Positions 3-32,271 of a DNA stretch of 32,866 nt are shown here, piece by piece (the first letter of the stretch is position 1; each line of letters begins with the position of its first letter). The notes under the pieces are model-generated. The model was not told where the DNA came from and did no database searches. It saw only the letters and a list, made by a program, of their open reading frames with translations. Source of the stretch: Miltoncostaeales bacterium (GTDB lineage Bacteria > Actinomycetota > Thermoleophilia > Miltoncostaeales > Miltoncostaeaceae); the NCBI GenBank assembly GCA_030833665.1, contig JAURGT010000017.1, forward strand, positions 1 through 32,866. Reading direction: 5' to 3'. The translations under genes and the position numbers were made by a program.

Positions 3-779
3 GCCGACAGCACCTACGTGCAGCTGCCGCCCTTCTTCGAGGGCCTCACGCCCGACGCCCCGGGCGTTACCGACATCGTCGACGCCCGCGCGCTCGCCGT
101 GCTGGGCGACTCGGTCACCACCGACCACATCTCGCCCGCCGGCGTGATCCCGGTCAACTCGCCCGCCGGTGAGTACCTCATCAGCAAGGGCGTGGAGCCC
201 CGCGACTTCAACTCGTTCGGAAGCCGCCGCGGCAACCACGAGGTGATGATGCGCGGCACCTTCGGGAACATCCGCCTGCGCAACGCGCTGGCCGGTGGCA
301 AGGAGGGCAACTGGACCGAGCACGTCACCACGGGCGAGGTCATCCCCATCTACGACGCCTCCATGCGCTACCAGGCCGACGGCATCCCGCTCGTGGTGCT
401 GGCCGGCAAGGAGTACGGATCGGGGTCGAGCCGCGACTGGGCGGCCAAGGGCACGGCATTGCTGGGCGTGCGGGCGGTCATCGCGCAGTCGTTCGAGCGC
501 ATCCACCGCGGCAACCTGGTGGGCATGGGCGTGCTGCCCCTGCAGTTCCTCGAGGGCGAGTCGGCCGAGAGCCTCGGCCTGTCGGGCCACGAGACCTTCA
601 GCATCCGGGGCCTCGCCGACATGGAGCCGCGCGCGATCCTCACCGTGGAGCTCGGCGACGGCCGCCAGTTCCAGGTGCAGAGCCGCATCGACGGCCCGAA
701 CGAGATGAACTACCTGCGCAACGGGGGCATCCTCCCCACGGTGCTGCGCCGCCTCTACAAGGAGAGCGCCGGGGCATAG
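3..779 (+). CDS. acn: Aconitate hydratase, C-terminal part (5' truncated by window edge)
   Basis: This is the C-terminal 258 or so residues of an aconitase A/IRP-type enzyme, which isomerises citrate and isocitrate in the TCA cycle in the cytoplasm. The reading frame is open from base 3 and begins inside the conserved [13 protein letters not shown] stretch, so the start and the [4Fe-4S]-ligating cysteines lie upstream of the window. Visible family motifs are [14 protein letters not shown], the [17 protein letters not shown] block, and [13 protein letters not shown], which carries the substrate-binding Ser/Arg residues of the mobile swivel domain. The final block ([21 protein letters not shown]) is typical of the family. 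The gene ends with TAG and is followed at once by a nested palindrome containing a terminator. It converges on the inositol-monophosphatase-family gene. Identification is firm; only the N-terminal two thirds is unseen. Confidence 0.96.
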
Positions 780-863
780 CCCCGGTGTCAGGCACTTAAC
801 CGAAGGGCCCGCTCCGGCGGGCCCTTCGCGTTTGGGGGATCGGTTACGTGCCTGACACCGGGG
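780..863. repeat. Nested palindromic element at the acn/IMPase convergent junction (copy A)
   Basis: Outer arms at 780-801 and 842-863 are inverted copies, 21 of 22 bases matching, with ends CCCCGGTGTCAGGCAC. They enclose a separate perfect hairpin (801-828). The outer ends closely resemble those of the element inserted in purC (31896-31992), so this looks like one copy of a dispersed palindromic repeat that also supplies a terminator. No transposase is present. That it belongs to a REP-like mobile family is inference. Confidence 0.7.
801..833. terminator. Rho-independent-type hairpin after acn, usable in both directions
   Basis: A perfect 12-bp stem (801-812 with 817-828, CGAAGGGCCCGC) closes a 4-base loop (TCCG) and is followed by a short GTTT run at 830-833. 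It sits 22 bases after the aconitase stop and 43 bases beyond the stop of the oppositely oriented IMPase gene, so it can end transcripts from both sides. The T-run is weak, as is common in GC-rich genomes. Confidence 0.7.
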
Positions 864-870
864 TGCGGGG

Positions 871-31285: not shown

Positions 31286-32271
31286 GCCTGATCCTCCGGG
31301 GGAAAGTCCGGGAGGTCCACGACGTCGGCGACGGCCGCTTGGTGATGGTGACCAGCGACCGCATCTCCGCATACGACGTGGTTATGCCCACGGAGATCCC
31401 CGGCAAGGGGCAGGTGCTCACCGGGCTCAGCGTGCACTGGTTCGCGCGCATGGCCGACCTCGTGCCGGGTCACCTGCTGGGCTGGCGGCTGAGCGAGATG
31501 CCCGACGGCTGGAGGAAGAAGGAGCTCGCCGGCCGGGTGATGCTGGTGAAGGCGCTGGACATGCTGCCCGTGGAGTGCGTGGTGCGCGGCTACCTCATCG
31601 GAAGCGGCTGGCGCGACTACCAGGCCACCGGCGCCACCAGCGGCGTTGCCCTGCCCCCCGGGCTGGAGCAGGCCGACCGGCTTCCGGAGCCCATCTTCAC
31701 CCCGGCCGCCAAGGCCGAGGTGGGCGAGCACGACGAGAACATCACCATGGACGACGTGGTGGCCACCGTGGGGCCCGAGCTCGCCGCCGAGATGGAGAGC
31801 GTGAGCATCGCCGTGTACGAGCGGGCAGCGGCCGACTGCGCCAAGGCGGGGATCATCCTGGCCGACACCAAGTTCGAGATGGGAGTGGCGCCCAACCCCG
31901 GTGACAGTCACCCTTCTGGCGACAGTCACCATGCGGGCGGTGGCGCGTCTGGCAGCGACGTGTCTGGCACCGGAACGGTGACTGACACGGGGGTTGCCGT
32001 TCGAAGCTCGCTCACGCTGGCCGACGAGGTGTGCACTCCCGACTCCTCCCGCTTCTGGCCGGCCGACACCTGGCAGCCCGGAACCTCTCCCCCCTCGTTC
32101 GACAAGCAGTACCTACGCGACTGGCTCGATCAGAGCGGGTGGGATCACTCGCCGCCCGGGCCCGAGCTTCCGGCCGACGTGGTGGCCGGCACGCGCGAGC
32201 GGTACGTGGAGGCATACGAGCGCATCACCGGTCGCTCGTTTGATGAATGGCTCAAGGAGGCCGCTGAATGA
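31282..32271 (+). CDS. purC: SAICAR synthetase with an internal palindromic-repeat insertion
   Basis: PurC links CAIR and aspartate using ATP to give SAICAR. The 329-residue product is about 30-40 residues longer than close relatives. Conserved parts flank the extra piece: RGKVREVHDVGDGRLVMVTSDRISAYDVV, VECVVRGYLIGSGWRDYQ, FTPAAKAEVGEHDENIT, ADTKFEMG and LTLADEVCTPDSSRFW, PSFDKQYLRDWL. Between FEMG and LTLADEV, relatives have a short turn, while here about 35-40 residues (about 203-241) rich in Gly, Ser, Asp, Thr and His are inserted. The frame is intact, so the enzyme is probably functional with a surface loop. GTG at 31282 overlaps the purB stop. Confidence 0.94.
   Translation: MSLILRGKVREVHDVGDGRLVMVTSDRISAYDVVMPTEIPGKGQVLTGLSVHWFARMADLVPGHLLGWRLSEMPDGWRKKELAGRVMLVKALDMLPVECVVRGYLIGSGWRDYQATGATSGVALPPGLEQADRLPEPIFTPAAKAEVGEHDENITMDDVVATVGPELAAEMESVSIAVYERAAADCAKAGIILADTKFEMGVAPNPGDSHPSGDSHHAGGGASGSDVSGTGTVTDTGVAVRSSLTLADEVCTPDSSRFWPADTWQPGTSPPSFDKQYLRDWLDQSGWDHSPPGPELPADVVAGTRERYVEAYERITGRSFDEWLKEAAE
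31896..31992. repeat. Palindromic element inserted in frame within purC (copy B)
   Basis: The ends 31896-31912 (CCCCGGTGACAGTCACC) and 31977-31992 (GGTGACTGACACGGGG) are imperfect inverted copies. They resemble the ends of the element at 780-863 (14 of 16 bases on the left). Inside, GGTGACAGTCACC recurs at 31918-31930 with one change, and GTCTGGCA occurs twice (within 31940-31975). It is translated in frame without a stop. It looks like a dispersed palindromic repeat that landed in a loop-coding position. Confidence 0.7.

Follow-up and report, generated by a model that had tools for sequence, protein, structure and literature searches.

A REPIN-like inverted repeat pair in frame within purC of a Miltoncostaeales bacterium

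The layout of REP doublets, or REPINs, has been described for Pseudomonas fluorescens SBW25 (PMC3116915), and a second report deals with REPs that lie in frame within known genes, in several genera and either singly, as dimers or in groups (PMC3733652). The latter classifies REPs by whether they bear a GTAG or a CGTC tag, records that roughly the same place in recB was hit in two Xanthomonas species, and summarises the Rickettsia palindromic elements (RPEs) as palindromic, in frame and tolerated in conserved proteins. The word 'actinobacteria' does not occur in PMC3733652, and no report of REPs or RAYTs for Miltoncostaeales or Actinobacteria was found in the open-licence literature.

The DNA analysed here (the window, 32,866 nt) is contig C30 of genome G000, the assembly of which comprises 1.62 Mb in 121 contigs and is 87.85% complete. 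With a probability of roughly 85%, an insert found in its purC gene is a REPIN-like, RAYT-linked element that lies in frame and is tolerated in a flexible loop of the protein. Like the REPs and REPINs of SBW25 (PMC3116915), the repeats are inverted doublets of imperfect hairpins, dispersed and with copies beside RAYT genes, and different RAYTs are accompanied by different repeat groups; unlike those of SBW25, they bear the tag AACCCC, occur as many in-frame copies in protein genes, and have no RAYT found in their own assembly. With the intragenic GTAG/CGTC REPs described in PMC3733652, they share the in-frame position in known protein genes and a single site that was hit repeatedly, but the terminal tetranucleotides of the GTAG and CGTC super-families are absent, the affected genes are not chiefly ones for DNA synthesis and repair but include those of PurC, ThyX and MnmA, and several repeat types occupy one loop within one genus, beside short loops. 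In-frame REPs are thus already published in that source, and what is new in this group is the other tag and the repeated use of one loop.

The insert in purC and its two inverted repeats

Between the motifs ADTKFE and SSRFW, the PurC protein of G000 has 66 residues, which is about 37 more than the 29–30 residues of six relatives from the same genus and agrees with the 35–40 extra residues that the initial annotation had claimed. The reading frame remains open through the repeat, and the PurC domain (PF01259) is matched on both sides of it. Alignments with the solved PurC structures 3r9r and 6yvq run to residue 202 and resume at residue 237, with nothing between. The AlphaFold2 model of the G000 protein (mean pLDDT 83) is confident except for most of residues 209–239, where the segments 209–211, 213–235 and 237–239 have pLDDT values below 50, and this stretch is placed between the predicted strands 195–202 and 244–246; the low values may in part reflect the thin alignment there. 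The residues encoded by the insert probably have no catalytic role. Twelve public records hold a PurC 85–97% identical over the queried part. Bins titled Bifidobacterium breve in public data (L048, L052, L055) contain purC proteins that are 80–92% identical to that of G000, and these titles look wrong.

Imperfect inverted repeats had been proposed to bound the extra DNA, and both arms were confirmed, CCCCGGTGACAGTCACC at 31896–31912 and GGTGACTGACACGGGG at 31977–31992; the full arms, 31893–31929 and 31960–31996, are longer than those quoted, each spanning 37 nt, and are 81% complementary and 30 nt apart. Each arm consists of CAACCCC, a near-palindrome of 13 nt, 5 nt and a second near-palindrome of 13 nt, and the ends of the insert read CAACCCC and GGGGTTG. 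When both 38-nt repeats (Table 1) are written in the same sense, 30 of the 38 positions agree; the highest agreement among 200 shuffles was 19. The whole insert folds as DNA into one long hairpin (-31.7, z -3.90, 0/200 shuffles as good), and two inverted REPs in a long hairpin are what characterises a REPIN; the RNA fold of 31890–32000 reaches -59.8 kcal/mol (z -2.80, 2/200 shuffles as good). Taken alone, the second repeat forms a strong hairpin (z -5.44, 0/200 shuffles as good), while the DNA fold of the first is only moderate (z -1.82, 11/200). The second repeat also shows a 92% match to a repeat in a thyX-like gene of the same genome. Depending on the frame, the core is translated as GDSH, as VTVT or, in the third frame, into a TGA stop. 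No target-site signature was seen at the insert on inspection by eye.

Table 1. Coordinates of purC, of the parts of its insert and of related repeats
Feature	Position	Strand	Basis or context
Inverted pair of the second class, CCCCGGTGTCAGGCACTTAACCG and its inverse	778..865	.	between aconitase C-terminus and opposite-strand suhB-like gene
purC, SAICAR synthetase, 329 aa with in-frame insert	31282..32271	+	translation (GTG start codon at 31282); PF01259 match in two stretches
Whole insert, inverted repeat pair (REPIN-like), 104 nt	31893..31996	+	arm complementarity, loop comparison, DNA fold
First repeat: CAACCCC tag and hairpin (13 nt - 5 nt - 13 nt)	31893..31930	+	copies elsewhere in genome
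Spacer between repeats, loop of the long hairpin	31931..31958	+	shorter form in G018 purC
Second repeat, inverted	31959..31996	-	30/38 positions identical to first repeat
PurC stretch encoded by the insert	about residues 204-239		open frame through the repeat
Ham1 core site	L283-L289 genes; G000 L089 residues 105-109		orthologue comparison

Dispersed copies and their presence in other genes

The repeat is dispersed, as had been supposed from its ends. In G000 the exact core GGTGACTGTCACC was counted 24 times, distributed over both strands (14 and 10) and forming 21 clusters, against none for the reversed-pattern control, and tagged hairpins of the form AACCCCNGTGNCWGNCAC number 17, again against a control of 0; short imperfect hairpins in many dispersed copies are the mark of REPs. 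The tagged hairpin is present in 13 of the 20 genomes of the genus, with a control of 0 in all 20. Exact cores number 61 in G013 and 68 in G018, and none occurs in G019, G006 or G007, which also belong to the genus, although G019 has seven places with a G/C centre. Outside the genus, five occurrences of the core were found among 41 genomes, one each in five of them. When the insert DNA was searched against these genomes, the whole composite was found, among the matches listed, solely in purC of G000 and G018 (80%), and its two ends matched separately at many places, also among the matches listed; since repeat-poor genomes likewise give 4 to 8 weak matches, the weak end of this list, which runs best first, is attributed to chance.

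The initial annotation further stated that the ends of the insert match those of a palindrome after aconitase. The genes flanking this palindrome are presumably those of aconitase and a suhB-like protein, to judge from motifs in their sequences. Both repeats share the skeleton CCCCGGTG.CAG.CAC, but the palindrome belongs to a different class (GGTGTCAGGCACTTAACCG) and is intergenic. The aconitase stop lies at 779, and the DNA fold of 778–865 is strong (z -8.70). The class recurs elsewhere in G000, where six examined sites of the form GGTGTCAGGCACT had no coding signal across them, and it also flanks RAYT genes in G018 and G010.

The coding context of the core clusters was judged by the score of the frame spanning them. 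In G000, 9 of the 21 clusters lie in frame in proteins with a Pfam match, namely PurC, a ThyX-like protein, MnmA, a fusion of a luciferase-like protein with an AMP-ligase, an aldehyde dehydrogenase, a DNA polymerase III alpha protein, Ham1, a class IV aminotransferase and a GT87 protein in which the core falls outside the domain. For G018, 65 of the 68 cores were listed and form 37 clusters, 15 of them in frame in a Pfam-matched protein (10 run directly against Pfam, 5 assigned through their orthology to G000 proteins that had been run); for a further candidate, at L112, Pfam gave no match. Among the 15, six are single VTVT cores in conserved proteins (L106, L110, L115, L119 at 10915, and L121 at 11106 and 12394) and may be native. 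The MnmA protein of G018 (L104:2315-3838) is a fusion that also contains a NifU N-terminal domain.

Orthologues were compared for PurC, ThyX, MnmA, the luciferase-ligase fusion and Ham1. The search expression read 8 of the 17 ThyX loci, for which 16 proteins were aligned instead, and 14/16 loci were read for MnmA, 12/19 for the luciferase-ligase linker and 11/16 for Ham1. Length varies with the repeat in PurC, ThyX, MnmA and the luciferase-ligase linker, relatives having either other repeats or a shorter loop. The linker between the luciferase-like oxidoreductase and the AMP-ligase is repeat-rich in this fusion (L086:1540-4104, L122:2009-4564 and orthologues).

In Ham1, the exact 13-nt core encodes GDSH in G000, G015, G013, G018 and G005, and the protein is as long as in six core-less relatives, which have other codons at this place. 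Insertion alone offers no explanation for cores at unchanged length. The repeat might also spread by conversion, in which single-stranded REP DNA would anneal to near matches in native coding DNA and overwrite them without a change in length; the Ham1 site is the kind of case that this process would produce, the single VTVT cores of G018 and the G/C-centred places of G019 may be further ones, and we hold such spreading to be improbable yet worth naming beside insertion. Somewhat less probable again is that GGTGACWGTCACC is a conserved genomic motif, a site bound by a host protein, which selection would have maintained or created both within genes and between them, and not mobile at all. Length-neutral exact cores such as those of Ham1 would suit a site of this kind, as would the persistence of copies in genomes in which no RAYT was detected, but it accounts poorly for PurC inserts of 12 to 85 residues with tags and inverted pairing, for repeat types that differ from species to species and flank RAYT genes, and for the lack of any exact core in G019, G006 and G007.

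PurC loops in relatives

A PurC match was obtained in 15 of the 20 genomes of the genus and the loop was read in 14, G000 included; purC of G001 is divided between contigs and therefore unread, and G004, G008, G010, G015 and G017 have no PurC match. Among the 13 other PurC proteins read, six (G013, G019, G012, G009, G016, G007) have a loop of 29–30 residues and that of G006 has 34. Outside the genus, 15 purC loci were fetched and 12 were readable, L037, L038 and L041 not fitting the search expression; 11 of the 12 have a 30-residue loop. The remaining one, G044 of the same class, has a longer loop of 44 residues that is Gly/Ala-rich, unrelated and free of the repeat. The short-looped PurC of G013 is 97% identical to that of G000 over residues 2–204.

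At least four types of insert can be told apart, and they add 12 to 85 residues to the 29-residue form. Those of G000 and G018 (loops of 66 and 76 residues) are of the GGTGACAGTCACC type, that of G005 is GTGTCAGGCACC, that of G014 is GGGGACTGTCCCC, and G002 and G003 share GTTGACAGTCAC, the loop of G003 also having GGARGGARGG tracts; the insert of G011 is short and degenerate. Three of the types resemble repeats of their own genomes. This holds for G000 and G018, whose purC insert type matches the repeats of the respective genome, and for G005, in which repeats related to the insert flank its RAYT. In the samples taken from G003, G005 and G014, which are non-random in that several G005 and G014 contigs, the purC contig of G005 included, were picked from earlier match lists, the 196 kb of G014 contain GGGGAC[AT]GTCCCC at 10 places, six of them with a GCGGTTG neighbour as in its purC, whereas GTTGACWGTCA, from the insert type of G002 and G003, was not found elsewhere in the 175 kb of G003, where the commonest repeat is GGGGACTGACCCC.

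No relative lacking the repeat carried the same loop, close relatives being short-looped, and copies of the ends were found elsewhere in the genome. The dispersed copies and the short loops of relatives thus support the proposal that a dispersed palindromic repeat makes new protein sequence in PurC; the initial annotation had likened it to the Rickettsia palindromic elements, and the closest known kind is now refined to REP/REPIN with its RAYT transposase. It is very improbable that this is an ordinary unstable loop which grew by low-complexity or tandem slippage and resembles dispersed repeats only secondarily: the tracts in the G003 loop, the Gly/Ala-rich loop of G044 and four units arrayed in tandem in the luciferase-ligase linker of G012 would all fit such growth, but slippage does not yield ends that are inverted, tagged and, among the matches listed, 89–92% identical to copies elsewhere in the genome.

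In a tree of four trimmed proteins, in which several nodes are weakly supported, filled and short loops stand side by side. G013 and G019 branch between G000 and G018, and both have a short loop with the same AQGTLTL turn as G012. Since the composite is common to G000 and G018 and the loops between them are short, loss, recombination or repeated insertion is required; judged from these sequences, plain vertical descent of the composite would need losses or recombination. The purC loop is a natural replicate experiment, since members of one genus have either a short loop or one of at least four repeat sequences there. It gives an opening to study the cost of a REP insertion to the protein, the possible gain of a function by such loops, and the joint evolution of RAYT-linked repeats with their targets.

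RAYT genes and the probable origin of the insert

A search for a Y1/RAYT transposase, which had been suggested as a check, found no PF01797 (RAYT) match in the 87.85% complete G000 assembly, but RAYT genes with flanking repeats exist in genomes of the same genus, where PF01797 was matched at 15 places in 11 of the 20 genomes. All eight RAYT proteins run against the NCBIfam model REP_Tyr_transpos matched it, four of them above its cut-off. Near-palindromes of one kind were found by an automated scan on both sides of the gene in 8 of the 15 loci. At L080 of G018, five exact cores flank the RAYT gene and are of the type present in purC of G018, so that the association of a RAYT with the same repeat is found in a relative. 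Reading of the sequences added two RAYT loci, L070 and L071, at which CCCCGGTGTCAGGCACTTAACCGA and its first part in inverse form flank the gene; the remaining five have a different inverted repeat around CTGACAGGCACC, the upstream arm being taken from the translation in three of them. The class GGTG[TC]CAGGCACTTA surrounds the RAYTs of G018, G010 and G005. G013 has no detected RAYT beside its 61 exact cores, and the repeats may therefore outlast a local transposase or lack one.

The least probable reading of the insert is a palindromic element of the Rickettsia type or some other MITE without a connection to RAYTs: it too would be palindromic and in frame in conserved proteins, a likeness by description only, drawn from the summary in PMC3733652, but the RAYT link of the present repeats and their anatomy favour REP/REPIN.

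The REPIN-like element consists of two REP repeats, each an AACCCC tag with an imperfect hairpin, inverted around a short spacer. By analogy with IS200-like transposases, a RAYT (Y1, HUH-type transposase) acting in trans most likely moved it into purC as single-stranded DNA. It may have survived there because its length keeps the frame, the TGA of the core appears in just one of its three frames, and the turn between β strands would tolerate flexible residues. We infer both the movement by a RAYT and the neutrality of the PurC loop.

The RAYT frame at L080 gave no match at 0.01 when compared with solved structures by phmmer; it is a stop-to-stop frame and probably has a long non-coding start, so that this negative result carries little weight. 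The last codons of the RAYT frames L077:1369-2043 and L080:679-2103 are supplied by the repeat, and both frames end in VTVT.
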